DNA from: Candidatus Colinaster equi
GTDB taxonomy: Bacteria; Bacillota; Clostridia; Lachnospirales; Lachnospiraceae
Assembly (NCBI GenBank): GCA_018064425.1
Contig: JAGHVF010000076.1
Coordinates: 1 to 54,714, forward strand
Direction of reading: 5' to 3'
Length of the DNA stretch: 54,714 bases
The notes under the pieces were generated by a model that was not told the DNA's origin, searched no databases, and was given only the letters and a program-made list of their open reading frames with translations. The position numbers and the translations under genes are program-made. Positions within the stretch are counted from its first letter, which is position 1, and each line of letters opens with the position of its first letter. Of this stretch, positions 20,220-54,651 are shown one piece after another.

Positions 20220-20288
20220 ATTCTATCCCCCATCAATACATATATCGTTATGCACATCTGCCATTTATGATATATGTTATAGCGTCAC

Positions 20289-23786: not shown

Positions 23787-23922
23787 AGCACTGCCCCTCC
23801 TTTCTTCCATGATAAGAGTACCTACAATCCTTTGTACGGGCACACTGGCTCATATTCAGCCTAGTATTACATATTTATCATACCACTTCTTTGTCAATAT
23901 CTCAATACTTTTATTCAATTTT

Positions 23923-27008: not shown

Positions 27009-27027
27009 CAATAATCCTCATCGATCA

Positions 27028-30076: not shown

Positions 30077-32104
30077 TTACTGGTTGCTTGGGAACATTCC
30101 CGCAATTGCAGATGTTTTGCTGTTAAGTTCTGCCATTGCTTTTTCCATACGCGTGAACTTGCTGTAATAGAAATCTTCCCAAGTTGCAATCTGCTTCTCC
30201 TGATTCTTAATCTTATCTTTGTACTGATCATATTCGGTCTGCATCTGCTTATCGTTATATACAGTGAATGCAGAACTGAATTCTGTTCTCTCCATCAATC
30301 CGCCAAGCTTATCATATAGATTCTTAGCCAAGCCTGAGAAGAATTCAGCAACTTCATCAGGATTATTGGCTATAGCCACTTTAAGCTTGTCATCAGCAGA
30401 AGATGTAGTCTTATCATCAGGGTCACCATCGATGTGATATGCACCCTTCTCATTATCAGCCGCTGAAAAATAGCTCAATGTATTGATACCGAATTCGCTA
30501 AGATACATCTTTTTGCCATTTGCCATTGTTACGCCTGATGCCATAACCATCTTCATAGCATTGGAAACATTACCGAGAGTCGAGTCCTTACGCAGAAGAG
30601 CAGATTTAATCTTTTTCTCCCACTCCTCAATCTCGTCATCCTTCATTGTCTCTTTTTCCTCATCGGTAAGCATCTTATAATCCTTGGCCGATTCGGCATT
30701 ATAAAGTTTGTCCATCTCATTGACCAGTTCATTGTAATCCTTCATGAACTTCTTAATCATGTCATAGACTCCGGATGTATCCTGAGTTGTCGTCAATGTA
30801 ATATCTTCATCATATGCATGATTCAATGTAATAGTCAGACCGTTTATCTCAAAGTTATTACCGGTAGAAGTATACGTAACATCATTAAGCACTATAGAAG
30901 CATCTTCGCCCTTTACAAAAGTAGCTTTGCTCTTCTCATATGCCTTAACAATATCATCTACACCCTTGGTTGCATCTGCATTTAACTTGGCAAGTACGTC
31001 CGCATCATTCTCCCAGTCATATAAGCTGATGGCATCAGCAAGTTCTGCTGCAGCTGCATCCTTTGCGTCATTCTTGCTGACAAGATCCTCAAATGCTGTC
31101 TGCTGTTCTTTTGCAACATCAAGCTGCAATTGTGCTGTAGCTATTTCAGCATTCTTAGCCTCTATCGAAGCATTCAAAGTATCAATCTCATCAGGGTCTG
31201 TAGCTGCATCAAGCTGTGCCTGCAACACTGTGAGTTCATCCTGAAGTGTTGTAAGTGCCAGACTTTTTTCATCAACTGTTGCCTGCAATACATCGGGATC
31301 TGTCTCTGCATCATCGCCATACTTCTCTGCATATGCTGCAACTGCGGCATCATAATCAGCCGTCAAATCCGTGTGTTTCTTTGTAGCATTCGCGATTGCT
31401 GTTTTATATTCCTGTTTAAGTGCTTCTACTCTGCCTGCAATAACATCATCTTTGTTGTATGACGTATCTGTTAACAATCCCAACTTGCCCAAAGCATCCA
31501 TGCCATCGGCATCTGCTGCCTTGATTGCAAAATTGCCCTTTTCGCCGGTCTCTTTTGCACTTATATAGAATCTCTGATTCTTGGAATCAAAATTGCAATT
31601 AACACCTGCTTCTTTTACGGCATCGGCTATTTGAGCCATCGTTGTGGTATCGCTTATCTCTATTTCCGTATCTTTACCGTTCACCGTTACAGTGAATTTG
31701 CTGCCGGCTTTTATTCCAAGCAATTCCGTAGCAAGGCCCGTAGCTCCAACTTTACCGGTACTGTTTAACTTCGCTCCGGTTAAGTAAGCGGCTTTTGCCA
31801 TATTTGTAATCTTAAGTGTCTGTACAGCTTCGGGAGCGATTGAATCTGTAAGTATCGTAACCGCATCCGAGCTTGCCTTAGTCATCTTTTTGCTGTAATC
31901 AGACTTAAGACGCATATCACTAAGTGTTGTGCTGTACAAATTATATATTTTACTGTTTATTTCTTTCCAGGAATCCTGTTTCCAAGATAATTTCTTTTGA
32001 TCCTGCTCAAGAGTTATCTTTTTCTGCGACTTTGCCTTAACCAATTCTTCAACAATCGCATCGGTATCCATTCCTGAATTGAGTCCTGATAATCTGATTG
32101 CCAT
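30077..32104 (-). CDS. fliD: Flagellar filament cap protein FliD with a helical insertion
   Basis: 675 residues, well above the usual 450-500. The N-terminal motif RLSGLNSGMDTDAIVEELV and the C-terminal FliD_C region (DYNELVNEMDKLYN, LSEFGINTLSY, FTRMEKAMAELNS) are typical. Residues about 222-398 are an extra stretch rich in Ala, Asp, Glu and Lys, with coiled-coil pattern, placed inside the D2/D3 beta region just before the DASIVLNDVTYTST strand. It caps the growing filament and directs flagellin folding. The start at 32104 follows AAAGAGGTG; the upstream frame to 32125 is not needed. Confidence 0.95.
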   Translation of the reverse strand: MAIRLSGLNSGMDTDAIVEELVKAKSQKKITLEQDQKKLSWKQDSWKEINSKIYNLYSTTLSDMRLKSDYSKKMTKASSDAVTILTDSIAPEAVQTLKITNMAKAAYLTGAKLNSTGKVGATGLATELLGIKAGSKFTVTVNGKDTEIEISDTTTMAQIADAVKEAGVNCNFDSKNQRFYISAKETGEKGNFAIKAADADGMDALGKLGLLTDTSYNKDDVIAGRVEALKQEYKTAIANATKKHTDLTADYDAAVAAYAEKYGDDAETDPDVLQATVDEKSLALTTLQDELTVLQAQLDAATDPDEIDTLNASIEAKNAEIATAQLQLDVAKEQQTAFEDLVSKNDAKDAAAAELADAISLYDWENDADVLAKLNADATKGVDDIVKAYEKSKATFVKGEDASIVLNDVTYTSTGNNFEINGLTITLNHAYDEDITLTTTQDTSGVYDMIKKFMKDYNELVNEMDKLYNAESAKDYKMLTDEEKETMKDDEIEEWEKKIKSALLRKDSTLGNVSNAMKMVMASGVTMANGKKMYLSEFGINTLSYFSAADNEKGAYHIDGDPDDKTTSSADDKLKVAIANNPDEVAEFFSGLAKNLYDKLGGLMERTEFSSAFTVYNDKQMQTEYDQYKDKIKNQEKQIATWEDFYYSKFTRMEKAMAELNSKTSAIAGMFPSNQ

Positions 32105-32169
32105 ATCTGCACCTCTTTCCGACATCCGTGTCTTCTGTTATGCTTCCTCTGTGCTGTACGTGTTTCTCG

Positions 32170-39303: not shown

Positions 39304-39579
39304 TCATAATGCGCTGTTGTACTTCTGAAACAGTTTCTGTGCGAAACTCTCACTGTCCACACTGTATTCTCCATTGTCGATTCGGCTCTTAATAGAGTTA
39401 ACCAAATCTTCGCGAATATCAGATGCGCCGGCTACTGCAGCCTTTGCTGTCTGAATATCCTTTCCCATGCTGGAAATCTGCAGCTGGTCAGAGAAGCTCT
39501 TTGAAGTCTCTTTCTTCACTTGTTTGGCGCTGTTATTGTTATATAACTGTTGCACCTGAGTATATGCTTCTATACGCAT
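39304..39579 (-). CDS. flgM: Anti-sigma-28 factor FlgM
   Basis: 91 residues. The C-terminal half contains DIREDLVNSIKSRIDNGEYSVDSESFAQKLFQ, the sigma-binding helices of FlgM with the typical RxxxGxYxxd pattern. It holds the flagellar sigma factor until the hook is complete. The frame opens far upstream, but ATG 39579 follows AAGGAGGAG and gives a normal size. A sigma-28-like promoter precedes it, implying feedback on its own expression. Confidence 0.93.
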   Translation of the reverse strand: MRIEAYTQVQQLYNNNSAKQVKKETSKSFSDQLQISSMGKDIQTAKAAVAGASDIREDLVNSIKSRIDNGEYSVDSESFAQKLFQKYNSAL

Positions 39580-39622
39580 GTCGCTCCTCCTTATCAGGAA
39601 TACACATTTGTTTTCAATATGT

Positions 39623-39649
39623 TTATCGACATTTACCAATAAATCTTTA
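39623..39649 (-). promoter_or_regulatory. Sigma-28 (SigD-type) promoter of the flgM operon
   Basis: TAAA (39646-39649), a 15-nt spacer, then GTCGATAA (39623-39630), close to the TAAA-N15-GCCGATAT consensus. Spacing to flgM leaves a leader of about 35 nt with a strong ribosome binding site. Confidence 0.75.
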
Positions 39650-39663
39650 GGCTTTTTTGTAAA

Positions 39664-39690
39664 AAAATTGGACCAAAACGGTCCAATTTT
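39664..39690 (-). terminator. Terminator of the chemosensory/phosphorelay operon
   Basis: An 11-bp perfect stem pairs 39664-39674 with 39680-39690 and is followed on the minus strand by TTTTTTT. It overlaps the stop codon of the DegV-fused kinase by 2 nt. Confidence 0.9.
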
Positions 39691-42367
39691 ATATGTATTT
39701 ATTTCGTCTGTAGAATGACAAGCCGATTGCCTTATCTCCTACCGTACCGGCGACCGTAACAGAAGTCTTCTGCACAATAATATTCTCCGGTTCATAATAT
39801 TTTGTAAGCATATCATATGCTAATTCCTGCTGTTTATGCGTCAATCCGACGTGACTGAATATAACCTTGCTTCCCGGTGCAATACGTCCTTTACCAATCA
39901 TGGACTGGGAAATATGTTTACGTATAACACTGTCGTCACTGCCTGTCATTACCGACACAAATAATTGTACGGATTTATTGATTCTCATAACAGGTCTGAA
40001 ATTGAATGCATTGAAGAACGCTCCGATTACCGCCGACATTTTGGCCGATTGTACAAATACATCAGATGACGGCAATACAACATTGGTATCCACATATTCG
40101 CATAATGCGGTTATATCTGAATAGATTTTATCCGCTCCTACGCCTTTTGTTACCCAACTTGCTGCCGTAAGTGCAAGTAGACCTAAGCCTCCCGATACTT
40201 GTCCTGTATCAACCACTCTAACATGATCAAAGCTCTCTGCTGCCTCACACGCCTTATTATAGCTCTCGCCCAAGCCCGCACCAACAGACAGATGAATTAT
40301 CTCCTGAGCTTCTTCCAACTGTTCTCCGAAGAATCTCTCATATTCTTCAACAGACGCGCTGACCGCCTTTACATATGTCTTAGAGCTTGTCAAATATCCC
40401 GTCAGGTTACCCGAATCTATTTCAACGGTATCCATGAATCTGCCCTTAGGTGTTTTGACATACAGATACATCATGGCAATTCCGTTTTCCGATGCCACTT
40501 CAACATCCAAATCACATGCGCAGTCAGTTGTTATCTTCACTTTTTTCTTGTTTTCCGCCAAAAATGCCCCTGTTACGGCATCACCGATTACAACCGTTGT
40601 GTCTTTCTGATATTCAACAACCTCTTCCGGAAGACAATGCAACAGACATTGTTCCAATCTGCTTCCGTCAATAGGTTTCTGCAATGTCATATTGAATCTC
40701 GTACTATACTTAGCCAGTGTCTCTTCGCTTATCGTAGCTCCCGTAAGTGCCACAATCGCAGTATCTCTATTCAGTCCGCCATCTTGTATACGTATGGCAT
40801 TCATAAGTTCAAGTCCATCCATCTGCGGCATCATATAATCTACCAAAATAGTATGATATACATTCTGCATAGTCAGTTGAAGAGCCCTTCTGCCATCACC
40901 CGCAGTATCCACTTTCACCTTTGTGTCCTTAAGCAACTGCACAAGAATCGCTCTGTTAAGTTCATCATCATCTACCACTAATATCCTTGCGCTCGGTGCT
41001 TCAAAAGAGCGTTCATATGCATCATTTTTCAGTGCCACATTACCTGACAGGATATCTGTTTTACCAATTACTTCTTCTCCCACATATCCCTGATCAACCG
41101 TAATTGTAAAAGTACTTCCTTTGGTATATACACTATCTACCGCAATTTCGCCGTGCATAAGAGTAACAAGTTCTTTGGTAATAGCCATACCAAGTCCGTT
41201 GCCTTCTATTCGACTGTTTTTGCTTCTGTCAAACTGGCTGAATGAATCAAAGAGGTATTTCAAATTCTCCTTTTTGATACCGATACCCGTATCCGCAACA
41301 CTGATTTTGAGTGTTACATGTCCTTCTTTCGCCTTCACGCAGGAAGCGCTCAGCACTACTTCACCTTCTATCGTATACTTGATCGCATTGGTAAGAAGAT
41401 TGAGCACCACTTGCACAAGTCTGCGCTCGTCGCCAACCATTGTGGCAGGAATAGACGGATCCAGCAAAAGTTTCAATTTGAGCTTCTTTTCTTCCGCCCT
41501 TGTTCCGACCAGTTCAACAAGTTCAGTAAAGAAATCATTACTGTTATAGGGTGCCTCAATAAGTTTCATACTGCTGTTCTGTATCTGAGAAAAATCCATA
41601 ATATCATTAATAAGATTAAGAAGCAGACGGCTTGAACTCTTTATGGCATGCGCATTGGCTGCAGTCACTTCATCGTTTGTCTTTCTCAAAGTTATCTCAT
41701 TTAAGCCTATTATCGCATTAATCGGATTACGAATCTCATGGCTGAAATTCGCGTAGAATTTGTCTTTACTTCTTCCTAATTTTTCAAGCTTCTTTCTCTG
41801 TTCATTATTGATTTTTCTCTCAATCTCATACTCATGTGCCTGATACATATACATGCTTCCGGCAATAAAACCTACAATAATAACAGCTGCACCCGATTCA
41901 AACATTCGTCCGTTGGATTCAATAGCAAAAGCAGTAGGATTGACCGCAGCGTACCACAAGCAGATAATGTCCACAACAATTGCAAACGAGCCGAAGAACA
42001 ACAACTGTTCACCGCTGAAAATGATGAACACATATACTATGCCAAGTGTCAACCATGTTACCGTGCCGCCGTCAAAACCGCCCGAGGTAAAAAACATAAC
42101 AGGCAATACAAACAGCACCAGCATTCCGGCAACAACTATCTTCGAAATGTTAGTCAGTTTATCCTTAACACATAGCAAAAGGCTTATCCCCATCACCACC
42201 AAAATCGTACCGATGCATACCAGTTTGGTCGCACTTTCCCTAAGGCAAATTGCCACAATAAGGGCAAACACACTAATCGCAAGGCCTTCAATGCACAATA
42301 TTCTAAAGATTCTTTCTTTGAATCCTATTTCTCTGTCATGAACAAACATCCTCAGTTTTTCACGCAT
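39689..42367 (-). CDS. Membrane hybrid histidine kinase with receiver and C-terminal DegV domain
   Basis: 892 residues. Six or more membrane helices (about 20-175) replace any external sensor domain. HisKA follows with His210 in FSHEIRNP. The HATPase domain has its N box near 319-331, DTGIGI and GNGLGM. The receiver at about 460-575 has D510 (VDYMMP) and K564. Residues about 609-892 resemble a DegV/FakB fatty-acid-binding protein: KITTDCACDL opening, a VSASVEEYERFF segment, HLSVGAGLGESYNKAC, VVDTGQVSGGLGLLAL and the end VGDKAIGLSFY. The fusion suggests lipid sensing inside a phosphorelay, which is inference. Last gene of the operon, 16 nt after the preceding kinase. Confidence 0.87.
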   Translation of the reverse strand: MREKLRMFVHDREIGFKERIFRILCIEGLAISVFALIVAICLRESATKLVCIGTILVVMGISLLLCVKDKLTNISKIVVAGMLVLFVLPVMFFTSGGFDGGTVTWLTLGIVYVFIIFSGEQLLFFGSFAIVVDIICLWYAAVNPTAFAIESNGRMFESGAAVIIVGFIAGSMYMYQAHEYEIERKINNEQRKKLEKLGRSKDKFYANFSHEIRNPINAIIGLNEITLRKTNDEVTAANAHAIKSSSRLLLNLINDIMDFSQIQNSSMKLIEAPYNSNDFFTELVELVGTRAEEKKLKLKLLLDPSIPATMVGDERRLVQVVLNLLTNAIKYTIEGEVVLSASCVKAKEGHVTLKISVADTGIGIKKENLKYLFDSFSQFDRSKNSRIEGNGLGMAITKELVTLMHGEIAVDSVYTKGSTFTITVDQGYVGEEVIGKTDILSGNVALKNDAYERSFEAPSARILVVDDDELNRAILVQLLKDTKVKVDTAGDGRRALQLTMQNVYHTILVDYMMPQMDGLELMNAIRIQDGGLNRDTAIVALTGATISEETLAKYSTRFNMTLQKPIDGSRLEQCLLHCLPEEVVEYQKDTTVVIGDAVTGAFLAENKKKVKITTDCACDLDVEVASENGIAMMYLYVKTPKGRFMDTVEIDSGNLTGYLTSSKTYVKAVSASVEEYERFFGEQLEEAQEIIHLSVGAGLGESYNKACEAAESFDHVRVVDTGQVSGGLGLLALTAASWVTKGVGADKIYSDITALCEYVDTNVVLPSSDVFVQSAKMSAVIGAFFNAFNFRPVMRINKSVQLFVSVMTGSDDSVIRKHISQSMIGKGRIAPGSKVIFSHVGLTHKQQELAYDMLTKYYEPENIIVQKTSVTVAGTVGDKAIGLSFYRRNKYI

Positions 42368-42383: not shown

Positions 42384-45110
42384 CTACCTGTTCCTATATA
42401 TATCCTTCATGCGGTTAATCGAATCTATAGCCGACATATAATCACTCATTTCCACTTTACGTCTGATATTGGCCACATCTTCATCCAAAGGATTGCCATT
42501 ATACATACAACCTTTCAGTCTATCCAATACCCCATGCATATTATCAGCCTCAAAGGTATATGCAGCATCCTCAAATTCAGCAATGATTTTGTCCAATTCC
42601 TCATCCGATACAGCTACAAGTGTCTCAACATCTATCACCTTGTTTGCACTGTTACCGATATATTCAGATGCACGCAGCATATCAATAACGCGTCTGTATT
42701 CCTTAATCATTGCATCATGTCCGGCTAAGATATCATCAATCCTGCCGTCTTTTCCTGCCTGTTCCAGATCTTTTGCCATATCAGACAATCTCATGGCACC
42801 GATGCTCTTCATGGAACTCTTAAGCGCATGTACAACAATGGTATAATTGTTCCAATCTTCCCTCTTGTAAAAATCAACAATATTATTAAGGTTGGTATCA
42901 CCGTCATGCTCGTGCATCTTCAGAATGTCAAGATAATTCTCCTCGCTTCCGCAATATAGTATTCCCTTCTTGATATCCAAATCGCCGATTACCATTGATG
43001 CTCCGGGTTTTCCTATTCCTTCCGAGTCAATCGCATTGTCCTGAACATATTCAATTTTCTCCTGTGATATGAATTTCTTAAGTATTCGTTCAAGTCCGGA
43101 TATTTCAACCGGTTTTGCCAGGAAATCGGCGCAACCTTCTTCAATGAACATCTCGCGCATACCTGCCACAGCATTGGCGGTAAGTGCAATAATAGGCACA
43201 TTCTTATAGTATGCATCCTCCATACGCCTAATACGATGCATACATTCTATTCCGTCCATTTCAGGCATCATGTGATCCATGAATATAAAATCATAATCTT
43301 TCGTGGTAACTTTGTTCAGCGCTTCTTTTCCGCTGGACGCTGTAGTTATCTTGATTTCATATGGTTTTAGCAAACCTTCCAGCACTCTCACATTCATAAA
43401 GCTGTCATCTACAACAAGAATATGTGCGGTAGGCATTATGAAACGCTCCGCTTTATGCTCCCCGCTAATCACCATTTGGTTTCCTATATTACCGTTTACA
43501 ACATTTATCGCCGAGATGGCAAATATCGGTTTGTATACAAATATCAAATTATCTTTGCGTTCAGATACCTCTTTTCCTGCATCAATATATACAACCACAC
43601 ACGTACTCTTTGTCAGTGCATCGAAAAATTCCTTGTTTTCCAGGTATTCGGAATATCCTGTAAATATATGTGTCAGTGGCTCGCTCTTTACTTTAGCCTT
43701 AAGCTCCTCGATATTCTTGCACAGAAAACTCTTTACACCCATCTGTTTGGCAACATCGACAATAAGTTCTTTATATGCATCCTTAAGCGCTGTAATTTTA
43801 AGTCCATCCAAACCGAAATATGCGGCAAATCTTAATTTATCCTTATTCTCGATTTGTCCTATAGGTGTATCATCAGCTATTTCAAAAGGAATAACTACCT
43901 GTATCTTTGTACCCTCATTTTCCTTTGAATTAATTGATACAACACCGCCCATCAGCGTTGCCAGCGCCTGCGCTATAGACAAGCCGAGACCGACTCCGTT
44001 TTCATTTCTGTTGCGTTCACCGTTTCCTTGAGTAAAGCCCGAAAAAATATTGCTAAGCTGCTCTTTCTTTATACCGCAACCGGTATCCGACACGCTGACA
44101 ATCATGTTGATGCCGTAATCTTCTCTTCTGTATTGTATATCAAGGCTCACATATCCTTCATTTGTGAATTTAACGGCATTATCCATCAAGCTGAGTATTA
44201 TACGTTTCAGTTTTTGCTCGTCACCTCTTATCGAGCACGGAATCGATATGTCACAATTAACCAACAGCTCTACATCTTTATTCTCCAGCTTCGCAAATGT
44301 CATATTGATTACATCATTGACTGTAGAAGTAACATTAAACGGCTCATTTACAAGGCTCATTTTACCGCTCTGAAGCTCCGAAAAATCAAGTATATCGGTC
44401 ACAACGGACAGCAGATTCTTACCTGCGGACCTAATATCCTGCAGCGATTCCTGTATATCCTCCGGTGCATCTTTACGCAATACAATCTCGCTCATACCAT
44501 AGATAGTATTAATCGGAGTTCTAAGTTCATGCGATACATTTGCCAGGAAATCATCTTTGCTTTTTTGTGTTTCTTTAAGTTCATCAATGGTTTCCAACAG
44601 ATTAATCTTATTTTTTTGCTCTTCCGTTACCAAAAAGTACACAACATATATTGTCAAAGGCACTGCAAGCAATTGCAGAATATTCTGTATATCATTGCTC
44701 AGATCACCAAACACAATGCTTTTTCTTATAAACAAATGATATGGCAAAAGGATAATATACGATACTATCGGTAAAACAAGAAGCTTCGTAGACTCATACA
44801 GACCGAGAATAATGATAAGTGCCGCAAAGGAAACAAGAATATGTTGGAAATTATCAACCGTGAAGCCATACATAAGCAGATTAATTTCCAGGAAAAGTGC
44901 ATACATATTTGCTCTGAATTGATACGTCTTTATCATAGTAATAAATGACATCCACGACACTACAAGAAGAACCTGCATTGGAAGTGTAATCCAATATACA
45001 GGCTCTTTATACAGCATGATACTCACGCCGACAACATACAAAGTGAATATTGCCAGCGTGATTACCTCTATTCTGTTTCGTTTTATTTTGTCATATTCCA
45101 TATTGTCCAT
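42384..45110 (-). CDS. Membrane hybrid histidine kinase with pseudo-receiver, receiver and Hpt domains
   Basis: 908 residues. Five or six membrane helices (about 15-165) end in a short helix and HisKA with His194 (VSHELRTP). The HATPase follows with DNAVKFT, DTGCGI and GVGLGL. Residues about 426-545 have the outline of a receiver but lack the acidic pocket and phosphoacceptor Asp. The next receiver (about 562-680) is intact with D612 (MDHMMP), T644 and K667. An Hpt domain follows with His761 (HALKSSMKSIGA). The C-terminal 90 residues are helical with no evident His. This is the full relay set in one chain. GGAGCG precedes the start. Confidence 0.92.
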   Translation of the reverse strand: MDNMEYDKIKRNRIEVITLAIFTLYVVGVSIMLYKEPVYWITLPMQVLLVVSWMSFITMIKTYQFRANMYALFLEINLLMYGFTVDNFQHILVSFAALIIILGLYESTKLLVLPIVSYIILLPYHLFIRKSIVFGDLSNDIQNILQLLAVPLTIYVVYFLVTEEQKNKINLLETIDELKETQKSKDDFLANVSHELRTPINTIYGMSEIVLRKDAPEDIQESLQDIRSAGKNLLSVVTDILDFSELQSGKMSLVNEPFNVTSTVNDVINMTFAKLENKDVELLVNCDISIPCSIRGDEQKLKRIILSLMDNAVKFTNEGYVSLDIQYRREDYGINMIVSVSDTGCGIKKEQLSNIFSGFTQGNGERNRNENGVGLGLSIAQALATLMGGVVSINSKENEGTKIQVVIPFEIADDTPIGQIENKDKLRFAAYFGLDGLKITALKDAYKELIVDVAKQMGVKSFLCKNIEELKAKVKSEPLTHIFTGYSEYLENKEFFDALTKSTCVVVYIDAGKEVSERKDNLIFVYKPIFAISAINVVNGNIGNQMVISGEHKAERFIMPTAHILVVDDSFMNVRVLEGLLKPYEIKITTASSGKEALNKVTTKDYDFIFMDHMMPEMDGIECMHRIRRMEDAYYKNVPIIALTANAVAGMREMFIEEGCADFLAKPVEISGLERILKKFISQEKIEYVQDNAIDSEGIGKPGASMVIGDLDIKKGILYCGSEENYLDILKMHEHDGDTNLNNIVDFYKREDWNNYTIVVHALKSSMKSIGAMRLSDMAKDLEQAGKDGRIDDILAGHDAMIKEYRRVIDMLRASEYIGNSANKVIDVETLVAVSDEELDKIIAEFEDAAYTFEADNMHGVLDRLKGCMYNGNPLDEDVANIRRKVEMSDYMSAIDSINRMKDIYRNR

Positions 45111-45149: not shown

Positions 45150-46514
45150 TCAATATTTTCCGAAGTCATCTCCTAAAGAAATAATTTTCTCATTCTCTTC
45201 GGAAGTGCTCTTACTTCTAAGTTTACCGGCTACAGATGTGCTCTCCGACGCTGATTTGCCGACCGAACCACTGCCAAGATTGTATATAGATAGCAATTCT
45301 CTCATCCTTGAAGCCTGACTTGACAATTCATCACTGGCTGCCGCACACTGCTCGCTTGTAGCCGAATTGGTTGATACTACCTGTGATATCTGTCCGATTG
45401 CCTGATTAATCTGGGCTACTGCTGTCGCCTGGTAATTAGAAGAATCAGCTATACCTGTAATAAGTGCTTCACTGTTTCTTACCACCTCTGTTATTACTTC
45501 AAGAGACTTGTATGTTGCACTTGCCATTCTTGAACCGACTTCCACTTTATTAATAGAGTCTTCTATAAGTTCTGCAGTCTCTGCTGCCGCCTGAGCCGAT
45601 TTTGCAGCCAGGTTACGTACTTCCTCTGCAACAACAGCGAATCCCTTTCCGGCTTCTCCTGCTCTGGCTGCCTCAACAGCCGCATTAAGTGCCAGAATAT
45701 TAGTCTGGAATGCAATATCATCAATTACCTTAATTATCTTTGATATGCTCTCTGATGACTTATTAATATCAGCCATTGCCTCAAGCATCTCGCTCATTTC
45801 ATTATTGCCGGCGCGAACATCGTCAATTACCTGATTAACCATACCGGCTGCATCCGCTGCCTCTGTTGCATTCTGTTTTGCCTTCTCGGCAACCTCTGCA
45901 ATAGAAGCTGTTACCTCTTCAATAGCACTTGCCTGCTCTGCGGAGCCCTGAGCCAAAGATTCCGAAGCACTTGCTACCTGCGAAGCACTTGTCATCACCT
46001 GATATGCTCCGTCATTAATATTGGACAATGCCCTCCTGTTGCTTTCGACCATTTGTGCAATGGCATGGCCAAGTTTATCCTCATCACTCTTTACCTTGAC
46101 ATCCACCATCAGATTGCCGTCAGCCACAGCCTGCGCCACTTTAGCATCTTCGTCATGAGTCTTCGCAAGTTCATTTACCAAATCTGCCAAATGTCCGAAT
46201 TCATCGTTATACTTAATCTTGAGATTAACATCAGTATCACCTTTGGCCAATTTCTCTGTAGCTATCGTCAAATCTCTCAGAGAAATTCTTACCTGTCTTG
46301 CCAACGTAATGCAGAAGAAATACATTATTGCAAAACATATAATCGCCGCAATAATGCTGACAATTACCATACTATTGAAATACTTGTTCGGCTTTTCCGC
46401 TGTAAGAATACCTCTGGTTCTTGCCAAAGTGATAATAAACAAAATAGCAAATGAAACAAAACTAATTGAAAAACTAATAATCAATCTTGTATGAAACTTT
46501 AGATTCTTCCACAT
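45150..46514 (-). CDS. Methyl-accepting chemotaxis protein without an external sensor domain
   Basis: 454 residues. TM1 (about 10-29) and TM2 (about 48-71) are separated by fewer than 20 residues, too short for a dCache or 4-helix sensor domain. A HAMP-like region follows (about 72-150). The signalling domain has the hairpin tip [20 protein letters not shown] and a long helical bundle. No C-terminal CheR-tethering pentapeptide is visible. It starts 2 nt after cheW and probably feeds the CheA of this operon. Input may come through the membrane or through partners. Confidence 0.94.
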
Positions 46515-46516
46515 AG

Positions 46517-47140
46517 TTACTCTCCCTCCGTAGCTGTTCCCGTGCTTTCAATTGCAACATCTTCCTGCTTCTTAGCCTTCACATCAGGTACTGCGGCTCC
46601 CTGTAATGCCTCAGCCTGACCAATGATTGCGATATCTGCTTCATTTAACAGCTTATCGGGGTCAAGAAGTAATTTTACTGCATCCCCAACCTTACCTATC
46701 GCATAAACATATTTGTTATGCGACTTATCCGCCTTGCCGAAAGATGGCGACGGAATAATATTGTTTGCTTCAATCTCAACGACTTCGGCAATTTTCTCAA
46801 CAATCAATCCAACCACGGTCGAATTGACATTGATAATAATGATACATGTTCTGTCATTGTATGGCAGCGGTTCCTGCTTGAATCTTATTCTTACATCAAT
46901 TACAGGTATAATCTTTCCTCGAAGATTAATCAGGCCTTTGATATAATCCTCACTCTCAGGAATAGCCGTTACCTCCTGATATACAATGATTTCATTAACA
47001 TACTGAATCTTGATTGCAAAGTATTCACCGCCCGATTTGAAAGTCACATATTTGCCTTCCTGGGTATCCGTTGCAGAATTGGTGCCGTCCTCTTCAAGCA
47101 TTTCAGACGCTTCCAAAATCATATCCTTATTCTCGTCCAT
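46517..47140 (-). CDS. cheW: Chemotaxis coupling protein CheW
   Basis: 207 residues, a single CheW domain (about 28-165) with [34 protein letters not shown] and [15 protein letters not shown]. It links the MCP to CheA. The ends are extended: an acidic N-terminus and an Ala/Glu/Lys-rich C-terminal tail of about 35 residues. GGAGGG precedes the ATG. It follows cheA by 16 nt. Confidence 0.95.
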
Positions 47141-47156
47141 ATGTGTTCTCCCTCCA

Positions 47157-49298
47157 TCACTCGACCAATCCGGCAGGATCCAAAATCAAAGCAATACCTC
47201 CATCGCCAAGTTGTGTACATCCTGACAATCCGCGAACCTTCTTAACATACGAAGGTATCGGTTTTACAACAATCTCCTGTTTGCCGATGAGTCTGTCAAC
47301 AAACATGCATACACGCTTGCCGTCAATCTCCAATATAAGCATCATACCGTTATTGATGTCACTCTTATAATCATCGAGATGATACCATTCGCCCAGCCTC
47401 ATTACCGGATAACATTCACCTCGAATCATCACACATTCTTCGCCATTTGGCTGTTCCACCATCATATCTTCGTTGACGCTTACAAATTCTTTTACAACAT
47501 CAGTCTGAATAACAAATGTGGTGTCGCCGGCAGTCATTACAATTCCGTCAATAATTGCAAGAGTAAGCGGAATCTTAAGTAACATCAGGCTTCCTTCACC
47601 ATAGACGCTTTCTATCTCCAGACTACCGCCTATCTCCTGAATGTTCTGGACTACAACGTCCATTCCAACACCTCTGCCCGAGTACTCTGTTACCTTCTCA
47701 TTAGTTGAGAATCCCGGCAATGTAATGAATTGGAATACTTCCTTATCGGTATAAGAACTCTCTTTTCTGTCAAGATCCAACAGCTCCTGCTTACGGGCTT
47801 TCTCCATAATCTTCTTACGATCCAAGCCACCACCGTTATCCTGTACTCCTATCCACACCTTTCCTGCTTCTGTCTTAGCAAAAAGTGTTACTTTTCCTTT
47901 ACTCTTCTTACCTGCCGCAAGTCTTTCCTCCGGCATCTCTATACCATGGTCAACCGCATTTCTTACAAGATGCATAAGCGGATCCGAAATGTGTTCTATA
48001 ATATTCTTATCCACTTCCGTAGTATCACCCTGCATCTCAAACTCAATCTCTTTGCCAAGTTTTCTTGATACATCAAATACAATACGGTTCATCTTTTGGA
48101 ATGTATTGGTAAGCGGCACCATTCGCATTGACATTATTACATTCTGCAAATCCGTTGATATCTTGCTGAGTTGTCCTGCAGCCTTACTGAAATTATCAAG
48201 CTTAAGGCCCGGCACCTTCAAATCCGGATTCTGCAATACAACCGATTCGGATATTACCAATTCACCTATAAGATCCATCAGCATATCCATCTTGTTAACA
48301 TCAACACTTATGTAAGATGTCTTCTCAGCTTTCTTCTGCTTATCCTTTGCCAGCTTCTTGCCCTTGCCGGGCTCAGCATTTTGAATAACGAAATCACCGG
48401 GAGCAATCTTTTTCTCTTCCTTAGGCTCCTGCGTCTGTTTCTCAGCTTCGCTTCTTGCTTCAATCTCCTCAACGGGCGAATCAAGATCTATCTGAATATC
48501 CGTACCAAAGATATCAAATCCACGCTTATAAGTTGCTTCGTTGACTTCAAACAACTCAATAGACTCTATCTCGTATCCCATACCGATAATATCTCTGATT
48601 ACGCCTTCGGTAGACTGAGTCTGCAACAATATCTTGAAGCCGTGCTCCAATATCTCTGTTCCGCTTTCCGCATCTGTAATAATATTATCCGGAGAATATT
48701 GCAGATCTTCCGCAATCTCTTTGAGTGCATGTACAGCTTTATATGCATGTACATTCGCCATCTGCGTATCAGGCGTATATACAATGTATATCTGATAAAA
48801 ATGGCTTTCGCTCTTGGCCATTGGTGCAATATAGAACTGTGTCGGTTCCTCATGCACATTCTCTTTGATGACCTCTTTGGGCTTCTTTTCCCCTTTGATT
48901 GATGCCAGGAAATCATCAAGACGCGCCACTATGTCACTCGCTTTGCCGTCGGCTTCTTCACCATCCGACAATTTGTCCATCTCACCCTGAATAAAATCTG
49001 CAACTTCAAGTACATGCTCTACCAATTTTATATGCGGAACATTGTCAGGATGTGATTCTCTAAGATAATAGAACACATCTTCCAGCTTATGAGACACTGT
49101 TGTAATCTCATCAAACATCATGACACCGGATGAACCTTTTATCGTATGCATCGCTCTAAAGATTTCGTTAATCGCTTCATCATCAAAGCATTCCGCATCC
49201 TTTTGTTCCAGCACAGTCTCTTGCAATTGTTCAAGCAACTGATTGTTCTCAAACAAATATATATCAAGCATGCCGTCTGTATTAAACCCTGCTGACAT
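47157..49298 (-). CDS. cheA: Chemotaxis histidine kinase CheA
   Basis: 713 residues with all five modules. P1 has His51 (RAMHTIKGSSG). A P2-like domain at about 165-255 (FYQIYIVYTPDT) should dock the receivers. P3 dimerisation precedes P4, which has HLVRNAVDHGIE, VQDNGGGLD and GRGVGMDVV. P5 (about 580-713) is CheW-like and carries FVDRLIGKQEIVVKP. It phosphorylates CheY and CheB in standard systems. AAAGGAG precedes the start. This is the core of the operon. Confidence 0.97.
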   Translation of the reverse strand: MSAGFNTDGMLDIYLFENNQLLEQLQETVLEQKDAECFDDEAINEIFRAMHTIKGSSGVMMFDEITTVSHKLEDVFYYLRESHPDNVPHIKLVEHVLEVADFIQGEMDKLSDGEEADGKASDIVARLDDFLASIKGEKKPKEVIKENVHEEPTQFYIAPMAKSESHFYQIYIVYTPDTQMANVHAYKAVHALKEIAEDLQYSPDNIITDAESGTEILEHGFKILLQTQSTEGVIRDIIGMGYEIESIELFEVNEATYKRGFDIFGTDIQIDLDSPVEEIEARSEAEKQTQEPKEEKKIAPGDFVIQNAEPGKGKKLAKDKQKKAEKTSYISVDVNKMDMLMDLIGELVISESVVLQNPDLKVPGLKLDNFSKAAGQLSKISTDLQNVIMSMRMVPLTNTFQKMNRIVFDVSRKLGKEIEFEMQGDTTEVDKNIIEHISDPLMHLVRNAVDHGIEMPEERLAAGKKSKGKVTLFAKTEAGKVWIGVQDNGGGLDRKKIMEKARKQELLDLDRKESSYTDKEVFQFITLPGFSTNEKVTEYSGRGVGMDVVVQNIQEIGGSLEIESVYGEGSLMLLKIPLTLAIIDGIVMTAGDTTFVIQTDVVKEFVSVNEDMMVEQPNGEECVMIRGECYPVMRLGEWYHLDDYKSDINNGMMLILEIDGKRVCMFVDRLIGKQEIVVKPIPSYVKKVRGLSGCTQLGDGGIALILDPAGLVE

Positions 49299-49329
49299 CT
49301 ATCTCTCCTTTCTAATATTCCGATCAGTT

Positions 49330-49722
49330 TTATATCAAACCCAATTTCTTAAGAGCCTGTTCAAATCTCTCCTGGTTGATTGGCTTTCCCGAATATATCG
49401 TGCATCCCAAATCAAAAGCCATCTTTACATTTTTCTCTTCGTTAAGCGCTGTCGCCATAATAACCTTTGCCGCTTTCTCCTGCGGAATCTCGCGCTCCTT
49501 TTCCAAATTACGAATACCGATAAGCGCCTGATAACCGTCCATAACCGGCATCATTATATCCAAGCATACCAAATCGTATGGATCATCCTCCTCAAGTGCC
49601 ATCATAAAAGCGTCAACCGCTTCCATTCCGTCTACGGTTACATCACAGTCACCGTACTTTGACAAGAAATTCATCATAAATTTTCTTGTCACAAAATCAT
49701 CTTCCGCCAATAGTATTCTCAT
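49330..49722 (-). CDS. CheY-like single-domain response regulator
   Basis: 130 residues, one receiver domain. The acidic pocket is LLAEDDF (E7, D8, D9), the phosphoacceptor is D55 (LDIMMP), and the switch residues are MATALN (Thr) and the Lys in SGKPIN. It lies between cheB and cheA, so it probably acts as the diffusible output of CheA. It could drive flagellar switching or the relay proteins of this operon; the FliM-binding face cannot be judged by eye. AGGAG precedes the ATG. Confidence 0.9.
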   Translation of the reverse strand: MRILLAEDDFVTRKFMMNFLSKYGDCDVTVDGMEAVDAFMMALEEDDPYDLVCLDIMMPVMDGYQALIGIRNLEKEREIPQEKAAKVIMATALNEEKNVKMAFDLGCTIYSGKPINQERFEQALKKLGLI

Positions 49723-49741
49723 ATCACCCTTCTCCTTTTAT

Positions 49742-50788
49742 TTATTCTCTACGTAACACCGAATATACCTTTGCCGCTATGTTCTCAAGTCGTTCCTGAT
49801 ATTGCACCGCTCCGCACTCGTATGCCACCTTCGGCATACCATACACCACGCAAGTCGACTCATCCTGTCCGATTGTCTGTGCTCCCGCTTGTCGCATCTT
49901 TAGCAATCCTTTGGCACCATCGCCACCCATTCCGGTAAGTATCACGCCTACCGCATTGGCACCTGCTGCTGTTGCCACCGAATCAAAAAGCACTTCCACC
50001 GACGGGCAATGTCCGTTGACACGTTCACCCTTTTTTATCTCTACCTGATAGCCTCCGGCAACTTTTACCACTCTCATATGAGCATCACCACCCGGCGCTA
50101 ACAGTACTGTTCCCTTTTCTACTCTGTCTCCGTTTTGTGCTTCCTTAACGAATACCTTGCAGCGTTCATTAAGTCGTTGAGCATACATCTGCGTGAATCC
50201 GGCAGGCATATGTTGTACTATCACCACTCCCGGGATATCCGTTCCAAATTCGCTTATCACATTAGCTATCGCCTCCGTGCCTCCGGTAGAAGCCCCGATT
50301 GCGACGATTTTCTCAGAAGACGCCGTTACCGGTCTGCTTGCATTAGCTAACGCATTTCTTTGTCCCGATGCCACACGTTTCTTGATATTAGCAAGACTCG
50401 CTGTAGAAGCAATCTTTATTTTAACGGGCAATTCATTGGCCAAGAAGAATTCCAGCTGTTTCTTATCGGTCGTCTGAGGTTTTGCCACAAAATCGACCGC
50501 CCCGGCCTGCATCGCATCAAATACTTTTTCACTCAGCGTACTAATCATAACCACCGGCATCGGATACTGCGGCATCAGCTTACGCAAGAATTCCAATCCG
50601 CTCATCCTCGGTAGCTCGATATCCAGAGTCATCACATCAGGATGATGACTGATAATCAAGTCTCTTGCTTCATACGGATCGTTGGCCGTTGCCACTACCT
50701 CTATCGCCGGATCATTATTTAAATTCTGTACCAGAAGTTGTCGAAAAACTAACGAATCTTCAACAACCAATACTCTGATTTTTTTCAT
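49742..50788 (-). CDS. cheB: Chemotaxis protein-glutamate methylesterase CheB
   Basis: 348 residues. The receiver domain (1-120) has D56 (LDIELP). The methylesterase domain has the Ser-His-Asp triad S167 (IGASTGG), H193 (VQHMPAGFT) and D290 (TGMGGDG). It removes methyl groups from MCP glutamates when phosphorylated by CheA. Its first 29 nt overlap cheR, which supports translational coupling. CAGGAGG lies within the end of cheR. Confidence 0.96.
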   Translation of the reverse strand: MKKIRVLVVEDSLVFRQLLVQNLNNDPAIEVVATANDPYEARDLIISHHPDVMTLDIELPRMSGLEFLRKLMPQYPMPVVMISTLSEKVFDAMQAGAVDFVAKPQTTDKKQLEFFLANELPVKIKIASTASLANIKKRVASGQRNALANASRPVTASSEKIVAIGASTGGTEAIANVISEFGTDIPGVVIVQHMPAGFTQMYAQRLNERCKVFVKEAQNGDRVEKGTVLLAPGGDAHMRVVKVAGGYQVEIKKGERVNGHCPSVEVLFDSVATAAGANAVGVILTGMGGDGAKGLLKMRQAGAQTIGQDESTCVVYGMPKVAYECGAVQYQERLENIAAKVYSVLRRE

Positions 50789-51596
50789 TTGGCCTCCTGA
50801 ATATTGAAGGATGAATCACTTCAAATCCTGTACCCTCTCTGTCTATAGTTTCTGTCCTTCCTACGAATAAATATCCGCCCGGTACCAAACTGTCATATAT
50901 CTTCTCAATCAATTTTCGCTTGGTCGGTCCGTCAAAATAGATCATTACATTTCGTAAAAAAATAACATGCATTGGTTTCCTAAACGGAAAATCATCCATC
51001 AGATTGAACTTACGAAAAATAACCGAATCTTTGATTTCACGGGTTACCTCATACACATCCGAATGCGGCAACTGCTTAAAATACCTGTTTCTCCATGCTT
51101 CGGGAATCACTTCAATCTGCTCAGCATCATATCTTCCTTCTATCGCTTTGCTCAATGCTCTCTCGGAAATATCAGTAGCAAGTATTGTGGTATCCCACTT
51201 GGCTGCTTCCAGTCCAAGTGATTCCTTTAGCAACATTGCTATCGCGTAAGGCTCTTCACCGGTTGACGATGCACCACACCACAAACGCAAATCATGAGTA
51301 TCCTTTGCTTCCTCCTTAATCCAGGGAACAACATTCCTTTTCATAAAATCAAAATGCTGTGATTCCCGCATAAAAAAGGTGTGATTGGTTGTAAGCATAT
51401 TCACCAGGTCAATTTCAAGATTTCCGGACTTATCAGCTTCCAGCTTATCCATAAATTCGCCAAAGTCTTTATAGCCTTCGCTCACTATGTAGTTTTCCAA
51501 TCTCCCGTTCACAATCACCTTTTTGCCTGTCATATTTATTCCATACTTAGACTTAAGGTATGTGGTGATTCGAACAAATTCCTGTTCAGATATCAT
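50760..51596 (-). CDS. cheR: Chemotaxis protein methyltransferase CheR
   Basis: 278 residues. The N-terminal all-helical domain (FVRITTYLKSKYGINMTGKK) precedes the SAM-binding domain with LRLWCGASSTGEEPYAIAM and the IFLRNVMIYFD motif. It methylates MCP glutamates using S-adenosylmethionine. No tetratricopeptide tail is present. No obvious ribosome binding site precedes it. Its start lies 2 nt after the stop of the HD-GYP gene, so it is probably expressed by coupling. Confidence 0.96.
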   Translation of the reverse strand: MISEQEFVRITTYLKSKYGINMTGKKVIVNGRLENYIVSEGYKDFGEFMDKLEADKSGNLEIDLVNMLTTNHTFFMRESQHFDFMKRNVVPWIKEEAKDTHDLRLWCGASSTGEEPYAIAMLLKESLGLEAAKWDTTILATDISERALSKAIEGRYDAEQIEVIPEAWRNRYFKQLPHSDVYEVTREIKDSVIFRKFNLMDDFPFRKPMHVIFLRNVMIYFDGPTKRKLIEKIYDSLVPGGYLFVGRTETIDREGTGFEVIHPSIFRRPNEKNQSIGC

Positions 51597-51598
51597 TT

Positions 51599-52675
51599 CT
51601 ATTTTAATTGCCTATAAATCTTCCTGCACACTGTATATATCGCAGGATTAAATTTAACACCAACATCCGCTTCCAAAATTCTTAATGCTTCTTCTTTTGT
51701 ATAAGACATTCTGTATGCTCTGTCAGCGGTCAGTGCACAATATACACTGACAATCGCTACTATCTGTGCCGAAATAGGTATCTGATCTCCCTCTTTTCCG
51801 GTCGGATAACCGCTTCCGTCCCAATTCTCATGATGATAATGAGCTATATCCATCGCCATCTGTACGAAATCATTATAATCTCTCGACAAAGCCACATCCT
51901 GCAATATCTTGGCTCCTACAGCTGTATGTGTCTCAATAATCTCTCTTTCTTCATCCGTAAGCGGTATTCGCTTCTTTTGAAGTATCGCCTTAGGTACTGC
52001 TACATTACCCAGGTCGCAAAGCGGTGCTGCCACTTCGATAGTATCGATAAATGTGTCTGATATCACATCCTCATATACACCCGCTATCTGCAAAGACTGT
52101 GCAACAATCCTGCAATTATATTGCAATCTCTCGATATACTTCTCTTCATACATCGAATTGCTTCTTGCAAGATTGGCAAGCGCATACAATACACTCTTTT
52201 TTTCCTGCTCAATCTGCTTAAGCTGATTGTTTAATGATGTCTGAAGTCTCCTGTTAGTCTCTTGCAAGGTGTTCTTTGCTTCATGAAACTTAAGGTGTAC
52301 ACCCGCTCTGGCTTTAACCACTTCCGGAATAAAGGGCTTGGTGATATAATCCTCACCACCCAATTCAAAGCCCTTTACTATCTCATCCACTTCATCATAT
52401 GCAGATATGAAAATGATAGGGATTTCTCTTGTATTTACATCACCCTTCACAATTTGAGTGAATTCATATCCATCCATCTCCGGCATCGATATATCCAAAA
52501 GAATTAATTCCGGTATACATCTTTGCAACACTTTGAGAGCCTGTATTCCGTTTTCAGCAAGTATTGGCTTATATCCCATCTCTTCAATAATGTTGCGCAA
52601 TACAAATCTGTTTACTTCAACATCATCAACAATTAGCACTCTGCCGTCTTCCCTGATTGCATTACTTGTATCCAA
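51599..52675 (-). CDS. Response regulator with a degenerate HD-GYP domain (TTG start)
   Basis: 358 residues. The receiver domain (about 12-125) is intact, with D61 (LDISMP) and K113. A coiled coil links it to an HD-GYP domain (about 160-358). The GYP half is kept (HHENWDGSGYP), but three expected metal-site positions differ: the HD pair is C220-D221 (CDLGNVAVP), the ADVFDALT segment reads SVYCALTAD, and the first helix lacks the usual His (YNCRIV). Cyclic-di-GMP hydrolysis is therefore doubtful. The start is TTG, preceded by AAAGGAG at 10 nt; no ATG is nearby. Confidence 0.88.
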   Translation of the reverse strand: MDTSNAIREDGRVLIVDDVEVNRFVLRNIIEEMGYKPILAENGIQALKVLQRCIPELILLDISMPEMDGYEFTQIVKGDVNTREIPIIFISAYDEVDEIVKGFELGGEDYITKPFIPEVVKARAGVHLKFHEAKNTLQETNRRLQTSLNNQLKQIEQEKKSVLYALANLARSNSMYEEKYIERLQYNCRIVAQSLQIAGVYEDVISDTFIDTIEVAAPLCDLGNVAVPKAILQKKRIPLTDEEREIIETHTAVGAKILQDVALSRDYNDFVQMAMDIAHYHHENWDGSGYPTGKEGDQIPISAQIVAIVSVYCALTADRAYRMSYTKEEALRILEADVGVKFNPAIYTVCRKIYRQLK

Positions 52676-52700: not shown

Positions 52701-54107
52701 CTACAGCTGTGACTGTAACAATTCTATTGCTTCTATACTCTTTTGTGTGTTTTCCTTTGCAACAGCCATTTTCAGCTTAAGTACCGCTGTTTTAATCTCA
52801 TGCGGTGCCCCATCCGTAAGTGTCTTTATTGCGTCCGAGAACATCTCGGCTTTCTCCCAGTTCTCCATGTCGATACACAGATTAAGCTTCATAAGACGCT
52901 TCTTTATCTCTTCTACATTGTCACCTGAGCCAAAGCTTAGGCTGGCGGCATCAGCATCTGTCAAACCAAGTTTTTCCTGGAAAAGAGGCTTTGCAACTTC
53001 ATAATCCTGTGTTATTGCATTCTGTCCCGGAACCTCAAGCCATATAGAAAACGTAAACATTGTTCCCTTACCGACTTCACTTTCCACCGAAATATGACCG
53101 CCCATCAGCTCAACAAGGTTCTTACTGATATTAAGTCCAAGTCCCGTACCGCCGAATCTTCTCGATATTGATGCTTCCACCTGCGAAAAACTCTTGAATA
53201 ATTTATCCTGGTCTTTCTTATCTATTCCTATGCCCGTATCAACGACCATAAAAAACAGTTCAATCTTATTACCCGCTTTGGCCGTAGCCACCGCTTCAAG
53301 CATTACTTTTCCAACCGTGGTAAACTTTGTCGCATTCGATAACAGATTATTAAGAATCTGCGCTATTCGAAGTTCATCTCCGATAAGTACATCCGGAATA
53401 TCAGGGGCTATAGTCATAAAGAAATCAAGTCCCTTTTCATGTACCTTATTGATATGATTGGATTTGACGTATTCCATCATATCCTTGAATTTGAATTCTC
53501 TCGGTTCGAGCTGGAATTTACCTGCCTCCAGCTTAGAAAAATCAAGGATATTGTTAATAAGTGCATTCATATCATCACAGCCATGTTCAATCAGCTGCAA
53601 CAATTTAATATCATCCGGTTCAAGTTCTCTGGACAATAATTCTTTGGTATTACCCAGAATACCGTTAACCGGAGTTCTAAGCTCATGCGTAACATTTGCT
53701 ACAAATTCATTCTTGATATTATCCAGATTAACGCTGTTCTCTTTAACACTGGCCAGTTCCTTAAGTGCGCTTTCCATGCGGGATGCATCTGTTCCCATCA
53801 GAATGCGACTGCCGGCCAGTCCCGGATTGTCGATAATCTTCACATCTACCTTAAAACAAGTCTTATTCTGTCTGTATGCCATCATGGATAAGATATCATT
53901 CTCAGGTTCTGCGGTGCATACTATGCCATCTAAGTTACGTTCGAAACAGCCCGGAAAAATATCATCAATACTTTTCTCAATCAATCTGTCATATCCTAAC
54001 AACTCTTTAGCACACGCATTGGCATATGTTATCTCGCCTTGCTTGTTGTAGAAAATCATCAATTCAATTAGTTCATCATAAATTGCCAAAAGATTATCAA
54101 CATTCAT
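52701..54107 (-). CDS. Soluble PAS-domain histidine kinase
   Basis: 468 residues with no membrane helix. A PAS domain at about 10-115 (LMIFYNKQGEITYANACAKEL) is followed by HisKA with its His near 144 (VTHELRTPVNG) and HATPase with NLLSNATKF, DTGIGID and GGTGLGL. The last 90 residues are helical with no receiver and no recognised Hpt histidine. A partner receiver could be the REC-HD-GYP protein, whose gene follows by 25 nt. ATG 54107 lies after a weak GAGG. The frame extends upstream to a TTG that overlaps the hpt gene. Confidence 0.9.
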   Translation of the reverse strand: MNVDNLLAIYDELIELMIFYNKQGEITYANACAKELLGYDRLIEKSIDDIFPGCFERNLDGIVCTAEPENDILSMMAYRQNKTCFKVDVKIIDNPGLAGSRILMGTDASRMESALKELASVKENSVNLDNIKNEFVANVTHELRTPVNGILGNTKELLSRELEPDDIKLLQLIEHGCDDMNALINNILDFSKLEAGKFQLEPREFKFKDMMEYVKSNHINKVHEKGLDFFMTIAPDIPDVLIGDELRIAQILNNLLSNATKFTTVGKVMLEAVATAKAGNKIELFFMVVDTGIGIDKKDQDKLFKSFSQVEASISRRFGGTGLGLNISKNLVELMGGHISVESEVGKGTMFTFSIWLEVPGQNAITQDYEVAKPLFQEKLGLTDADAASLSFGSGDNVEEIKKRLMKLNLCIDMENWEKAEMFSDAIKTLTDGAPHEIKTAVLKLKMAVAKENTQKSIEAIELLQSQL

Positions 54108-54120
54108 AGCAACCTCAATC

Positions 54121-54492
54121 TCAACCAATCATTTCAATAACCTTGCGTATCTCTCCATCCGCCTCGACCAGCTTAACAGTGAGCTCGTTAGTAGTCGGCA
54201 CGTCCACATCAGCCGCCGCTTTGTTACGAAGTTCTTCCGTAATCTCACTTGCCAGTGTTGCCACACAGCTTATTCCGAGATTACCTGCCAAACCCTTCAA
54301 TGAATGAGCCGCCTTAAATGCGTTCTCATAATCCCCGGCTTTTACAGCTCGATCCAAATCCGCAACTCCCGTATCAGCCAAGTATTTCTTCAAAAAAGTC
54401 ACGTACATATCTTCACGTCCAAGGAATCTATGCAGTGCATCAGCATAATCAACACCCAAATCTATTAATTTCTCTGTTATTTCAGAATCCAT
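54121..54492 (-). CDS. Hpt (histidine phosphotransfer) protein
   Basis: 123 residues, all-helical. The conserved motif AHSLKGLAGNLG contains the phosphorylatable His (about 62). It is a stand-alone Hpt that can pass phosphate between the operon's receivers. The reading frame extends upstream, but the ATG at 54492 (MDSEITEKL) with AAGGGGG upstream is clear. It is the first gene of the operon. Confidence 0.93.
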   Translation of the reverse strand: MDSEITEKLIDLGVDYADALHRFLGREDMYVTFLKKYLADTGVADLDRAVKAGDYENAFKAAHSLKGLAGNLGISCVATLASEITEELRNKAAADVDVPTTNELTVKLVEADGEIRKVIEMIG

Positions 54493-54529
54493 AGTATCCC
54501 CCTTATAGATTTGATAATACAATATATAA

Positions 54530-54558
54530 ATTATAGTAAATGTGTACAGATTTTTCAA
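54530..54558 (-). promoter_or_regulatory. Sigma-A promoter of the chemosensory/phosphorelay operon
   Basis: TTGAAA (54553-54558) and TATAAT (54530-54535) are separated by exactly 17 nt. The start is near 54523, leaving a leader of about 30 nt before hpt. Unlike the neighbouring flgM operon it is not a sigma-28 promoter. Confidence 0.88.
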
Positions 54559-54651
54559 GTTTTTGTGTGAAATTTGTGTAAATTTTCTGACAATCAAAAA
54601 AGGAGCTAAAAAGCCAATGTCATTAAGTTAATGTGGCATAAAAAGTACAAC

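Follow-up and report, generated by a model that had tools for sequence, protein, structure and literature searches.

The window analyzed here, a stretch of 54,714 nucleotides from Candidatus Colinaster equi, encodes on its reverse strand a hybrid histidine kinase of 892 amino acids that ends in a DegV domain (39689..42367) and, directly upstream of it, a second hybrid kinase. Kinases of this kind form a sizeable family among Lachnospiraceae-like bacteria, where they usually occur as pairs. Our main reading, to which we assign a probability of approximately 0.55, is a two-kinase phosphorelay in which a repurposed DegV domain of the FakB fold binds a ligand and thereby biases the flow of phosphate. 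The domains, the fold, the presence of the catalytic residues, the pairing of the genes, the distribution of Hpt domains, and the losses of pocket residues are direct observations, from which the binding of a ligand, the direction of signaling, the route of phosphotransfer, and the output are deduced. DegV/FakB proteins are known as carriers; the incorporation of their fold into a family of histidine kinases, accompanied by consistent changes of the carrier residues, would clearly exemplify how a binding protein of metabolism can be converted into the input of a signaling pathway.

Domain composition and fold of the DegV kinase

The DegV kinase was defined by its open reading frame, its Pfam matches, and its catalytic residues. 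In the full-length model, the N-terminal part contains six predicted membrane helices at residues ~16 to 178 (41834..42322), the last of which continues into a coiled coil (helices at residues 16-41, 46-68, 72-94, 102-116, 119-142, and 154-229); the hydropathy profile of the same region has five peaks above the threshold. There follow, all on the reverse strand, a HisKA domain with the phospho-acceptor His210 (residues 201 to 264; 41576..41767), an HATPase_c domain (residues 312 to 425; 41093..41434), a receiver domain with the phospho-acceptor Asp510 (residues 462 to 573; 40649..40984), a flexible linker with pLDDT values below 50 (residues 588 to 605; 40553..40606), and the DegV domain (residues 609 to 887; 39707..40543). 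HisKA, HATPase_c, and receiver were assigned with Pfam, and both phospho-acceptors by an additional residue check. The phospho-acceptor His, the N and G boxes for ATP binding, and the receiver Asp, Thr, and Lys residues are all present. These are the catalytic residues of a hybrid histidine kinase, and autophosphorylation and phosphotransfer are predicted. The three domains and their catalytic residues are common to the window protein and hybrid kinases of the BarA, TorS, and ArcB kind, whereas the DegV domain after the receiver and the adjoining second hybrid kinase distinguish the window system from them.

The identity of the C-terminal domain is supported by profiles as well as by its fold. 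The Pfam DegV profile PF02645 matched with 102.3 bits (cut-off 27) over positions 1 to 279 of 280, and the NCBIfam DegV model TIGR00762 scored 117.3 (cut-off 99.7); among the best 25 of 138 NCBIfam matches, none of the 24 models other than DegV was above its cut-off. In a structure comparison by VIA-align of 888 of the 1,000 top-ranked Foldseek chains, the first 29 matches to the window domain were DegV/FakB proteins, several of them titled as fatty-acid-bound structures, and the domain has the DegV/FakB fold. The first-pass annotation had proposed a DegV domain behind the receiver of a membrane hybrid kinase and had suggested a profile search and a structure prediction of this part; both returned DegV, and the order of the Pfam domains confirmed its placement. 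The domain comprises ~285 residues and is expected to be soluble. The full-length model has a pLDDT of 83.5 and a pTM of 0.53, and with this pTM it does not fix the packing of the DegV domain on the kinase or the receiver.

The known DegV/FakB fatty-acid-binding proteins (PF02645, COG1307; PDB 1pzx, 2dt8, 3fys, 4x9x, and 5uto) are free-standing, unlike the kinase-borne domains. Only distantly similar in structure is DhaQ (2iu4, 2iu6), a DhaK-like operon co-activator of Lactococcus. DhaQ acts with a transcription factor, not with a histidine kinase. We know of no DegV domain in SaeS. The two-component system SaeRS of Staphylococcus aureus is, according to the available part of one article, inhibited by fatty acids that are kept low by the fatty acid kinase (PMC5539427); it resembles the window system in linking fatty acids with a sensor kinase but differs in that its link to the fatty acid kinase is indirect. 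Among the matches listed for DegV together with kinases or signaling in the open-licence literature, we found no description of the layout or the family, in agreement with the earlier statement that this architecture appeared to be undescribed. Of two matched articles, in their accessible portions, PMC9912610 is unrelated, as its mention of DegV is confined to a proteome table and that of hybrid kinases to the title of a reference, and PMC12688256, on a Ligilactobacillus regulator, lists a DegV gene in a deletion.

The kinase pair, its family, and the position of the DegV domain

Two features went beyond the first-pass annotation, namely, that DegV kinases constitute a sizeable family and that they are encoded with a second kinase. 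DegV-kinase matches in frames of at least 680 amino acids were present in at least 46 of the 299 genomes searched from the taxonomic family of the window, as counted by hand among the matches listed. At an E value of 1e-82, matches were obtained in 27 of 392 genomes of the order sample and in 10 of 391 genomes of the class sample, a threshold that gives no clean divide, as G1168 of the class sample contributes a free-standing DegV protein whose residues are of the FakB type (L159) and the order sample also takes in frames of 288 and 419 amino acids. Two matches of the order sample (frames of 651 and 924 amino acids) and three of the class sample (908 to 917 amino acids) came from another family of the order and another family of the class, respectively. 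Among the matches listed for the phylum sample of 398 genomes, frames above 600 amino acids occurred only in G261, G180, and the window genome. The sole other sampled genome of the genus, G213, contained only weak matches (best E value, 4.0e-8), which counts against our main reading. An assembly chimera was considered and rejected because the layout recurs in many genomes of the taxonomic family and in one further family each of the order and the class. The frame L119:1498-2907, also from a different family of the class, carries a DegV domain at residues 191 to 466 of 469, preceded by ~190 residues without a Pfam match at an E value of 0.001; the open frame comprises 580 residues.

Full-length identity between the window protein and its relatives was at most 40%. 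The closest named relative is L035, from an uncultured Lachnospiraceae bacterium, which was also the one relative found in a single-sequence scan of the genome contigs. We aligned 59 full-length proteins and, separately, their DegV domains. Ten of these proteins were of a long type, described below; among the 49 others, Pfam detected DegV and HATPase_c in all and HisKA and receiver domains in 47. A tree was calculated for the 59 kinase-borne and 31 free-standing DegV domains, the latter being the best own-profile matches of the phylum sample plus three proteins of the same genome and not a random sample, and a single branch with a support of 100/100 parted the two sets. In this tree the window protein pairs with L035 (100/99), followed by a set of 11 (97/95) that consists of nine members encoded in chemotaxis (che) operons, window included, and two others.

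The partner kinase of the window (42384..45110, reverse strand; open reading frame and Pfam) comprises 908 amino acids in the order HisKA-HATPase-receiver-Hpt and is located 16 bp upstream of the DegV kinase gene. In 52 of 58 relatives, a similar hybrid kinase gene was found directly upstream on the same strand, at distances from -46 to +96 bp; in three of them (L051, L057, and L078) it is a piece. The remaining loci are diverse. The upstream hybrid kinase of L062 overlaps beyond the allowed limit and so was not counted, a lone receiver precedes the DegV kinase in L064, the nearest kinase in L092 is 614 bp away with its gene in pieces, and the DegV kinase of L088 lies at a contig end. At L086 and L090, no kinase gene directly adjoins the DegV kinase. 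The proteins at these two loci (L086:7773-10358 and L090:7728-10337; ~865 amino acids) have HATPase_c and DegV domains with no Pfam match for HisKA or receiver, and form one branch of the tree (100/100).

The distribution of Hpt domains between the two kinases was uneven. Outside the long type, Pfam detected Hpt in none of the 49 DegV kinases and in 37 of the 40 whole partners, window partner included. All 10 long-type DegV kinases carry an Hpt domain, which stands after DegV in the three shown, and none was detected in 10 partners, namely, those of nine long-type kinases and that of L071, whose frame runs off the contig. As one member of the pair carries Hpt, the two kinases would constitute one relay, and we regard this division as the best evidence for such an arrangement. 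We infer the following route of signaling. The membrane kinase would autophosphorylate at His210 and hand the phosphate to its own receiver at Asp510, and the single Hpt of the pair, here on the neighboring kinase, would carry it to the receiver of an output protein. Binding of a ligand to the DegV domain, in the cytosol or at the inner face of the membrane, would bias the flow of phosphate in the pair.

In the window protein, as in most members of the alignment, the DegV domain comes immediately after the receiver. In the three long-type proteins shown it is located between receiver and Hpt, and in L071 it precedes the membrane helices (DegV at residues 19 to 289, hydropathy peaks from 334, and HisKA from 511). 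Furthermore, 20 free-standing DegV proteins were selected from the results of the 299-genome search; 17 of them belong to the FakB type, whereas L129, L130, and L131 belong to the kinase-borne type and have their genes immediately behind those of HK-REC-Hpt kinases (loci L149, L150, and L151). A domain that moves around the module in this way suits a regulatory role. A 419-residue DegV-Hpt frame was also found directly behind an HK-REC kinase (L152:7590-8846), and could represent a genuine protein of two domains or else a gene of the long type that has been split.

These positions bear on whether the DegV domain is an output rather than an input. Domains after a receiver are often outputs, as in hybrid kinases that end in AraC-type DNA-binding domains, and the position directly behind the receiver is the usual place of an output domain. 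Phosphorylation of the receiver would then gate the uptake or release of a lipid, and the kinase would control a lipid pool. The prevailing position in the family agrees with this proposal, but it is an improbable one, since the DegV domain of L071 stands ahead of the kinase and, at L149 to L151, DegV is a free protein without a receiver of its own. The Arg residue for docking to FakA is present in just 3 of 59 kinase-borne domains, so that a released lipid would have no evident taker, and the retention of Hpt in the pair, along with regulators near many pairs, argues for an onward relay.

Ligand pocket and docking residues

FakB carries a fatty acid for the kinase FakA. As described in the accessible portion of PMC8892158, the fatty acid carboxylate is held in FakB1 by a network of Thr62, Ser95, Ser171, and His270, whereas catalysis requires Arg173, and docking to FakA and the membrane requires Arg205; both arginines of FakB are described there as completely conserved and essential. 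We transferred these positions onto the alignment of the DegV domains. In the window protein, Thr62, Ser95, and His270 correspond to Ala668, Gly700, and Thr875, and only Ser171 is retained, as Ser774, so that one of the four network residues is kept. Arg173 and Arg205 are replaced by Lys776 and Thr808, respectively. The check for carboxylate contacts that had been suggested along with the initial DegV assignment thus gave a negative result for this copy, which has lost the Thr/Ser pair of the free-standing proteins in addition to the changes that are frequent in its family.

In the family, the hydroxyl at position 62 is widely kept (Ser/Thr in 47 of 59 kinase-borne and in 31 of 31 free-standing domains), and position 95 has Ser in 32 of 59 kinase-borne domains versus Ser/Thr in 31 of 31 free-standing ones. 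At position 171, Ser occurs in 14 of 59 kinase-borne and in none of the 31 free-standing domains, all of which have Gly. The largest differences concern the remaining positions. Arg173 is conserved in 25/59 versus 31/31, and the His270 position has His in 1/59 (Asn in 52/59) versus 31/31. Arg205 was found in 3/59 versus 29/31, and in 17/17 FakB-type proteins of the same taxonomic family; its column is uncertain by one, and Arg in any of the three columns was present in 11/59 versus 30/31, with Met, Thr, and Gly as the window residues. The column after Arg205 has Gly in 57 of 59 kinase-borne domains and also in the free-standing ones, there with Arg just before it. At the positions of His270, Arg205, and Ser95, the fused proteins L154, L155, and L157, from another family of the class, have Asn, Phe, and Glu, respectively. 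Ser at profile position 266 was considered as a mark of kinase-borne domains (57 of 59) and dropped because it is likewise found in 8 of the 17 FakB-type proteins of the window's taxonomic family. Retention of a FakB1-like membrane-insertion helix is weakened by Arg/Lys at the positions of Ala177 (29 of 59) and Trp180 (22 of 59), where the free-standing proteins, among the rows listed, have mostly hydrophobic residues.

That the DegV domain is a working FakB, which would hand a fatty acid to FakA for phosphorylation, is hardly credible. The genome does encode a FakA-like protein, but also three free-standing DegV proteins, all of which keep Thr62, Ser95, Arg173, and His270; fatty-acid kinase work does therefore not need the kinase-borne domain. 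A partnership with FakA was rejected on the losses of Arg173 and Arg205, and in the proposed mechanism the DegV domain of the kinase would not serve a fatty-acid kinase.

The first-pass annotation had further suggested that the phosphorelay responds to fatty acids. In its literal form, the sensing of long-chain fatty acids by the window protein through FakB-like contacts, this is very unlikely: the fold is that of proteins of which several were solved with a fatty acid, and Ser774 stands at the Ser171 position, but Ala, Gly, and Thr have taken the places of Thr62, Ser95, and His270, and because these carboxylate contacts are lost, fatty acid binding by this copy is not supported. The more general proposal is only partly supported. 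Both carboxylate hydroxyls were kept in 32 of 49 kinases outside che operons, as against none of the 10 che-operon members, window included. Based on these residues, a fatty acid is a possible ligand of members with both hydroxyls. In the majority of the family, a fatty acid or a related acyl molecule may still serve as the ligand; the che-operon branch, which includes the window protein, has lost the carboxylate clamp and probably has a different ligand.

The loss of carboxylate residues in the window protein counts against our main reading, and could also indicate a degenerate scaffold without any ligand, whose sole function would be to keep the two kinases together. Such a scaffold would be consistent with the replaced pocket of the window copy and with the wide variation of the ten che-operon members at key positions. 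We consider it unlikely given the pattern in the remaining family, where hydroxyls are kept as stated above and Asn occupies the His270 position in 44 of 49 members, and also in 8 of 10 che-operon members. A common Asn at a position where all 31 free-standing proteins have His is hard to explain without a ligand. Considering the loss of carrier residues, the replacement of His by Asn in most members, the kinase partner, and the mobility of the DegV domain, we favor a ligand-binding regulatory domain.

Neighboring genes and candidate outputs

The chemotaxis genes for MCP, CheW, CheA, a CheY-type receiver, CheB, and CheR (45150..51596, reverse strand; Pfam) stand between the kinase pair and a gene for a receiver-HD-GYP protein of the c-di-GMP phosphodiesterase type (51599..52675, reverse strand), which is a candidate output with homologues near the kinase pair elsewhere. 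Directly downstream of the DegV kinase lies the gene of the anti-sigma-28 factor FlgM (39304..39639, reverse strand; Pfam), followed by flgN and two FlgK-type genes, both with FlgK_D1. In L035, CheA precedes the pair and the FlgM, FlgN, and FlgK-type genes follow it in the same order as in the window.

Regulators were sought within 5.5 kb upstream on the same strand using single-sequence searches, with 9 of 31 checked by Pfam. A regulator with c-di-GMP enzyme domains was found in 20 of 58 loci (13 REC-HD-GYP, 3 with REC, GGDEF, and HD-GYP, and 4 REC-GGDEF) and a lone receiver of 119 to 138 amino acids in 11, counts that cover DegV-kinase loci only and may differ from the background rate beside other hybrid kinases. 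A che operon surrounds the pair in 9 of the 58 relatives, plus the window itself, and 18 loci had no che genes and no upstream regulator of the c-di-GMP or lone-receiver kind, which counts against our main reading.

This gene order suggests an output through c-di-GMP or a CheY-type receiver, and the Hpt of the window pair would most likely act on the receiver-HD-GYP protein or the CheY-type receiver. If the ligand is an acyl molecule, Lachnospiraceae-like bacteria would be able to couple their lipid state directly to motility and c-di-GMP through this system. In a broader and more tentative view, which we hold to be possible but less than even, the family would be a class of paired-kinase phosphorelays that captured a fatty-acid-carrier fold as an internal sensor connecting a lipid or acyl metabolite to c-di-GMP turnover; the window branch, with its pocket re-tooled, would have been directed to chemotaxis and flagellar control.

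Several additional features of the window were observed. At 52701-54597, upstream of the receiver-HD-GYP gene, lie the genes of a PAS histidine kinase and of a separate Hpt protein, which may provide an additional input to this region. The flagellar cluster contains two FliD-type genes (22437-23843 and 30077-32125), the first of which matches only the FliD C-terminal model, at residues 281 to 404, and between both lies the gene of an alpha-amylase/CBM48 protein (24825-27011). Two zinc-ribbon proteins are encoded in tandem at 18456-22364; one has VWA and YARHG domains, and the other, of 691 amino acids, has no further Pfam match at an E value of 1e-5.
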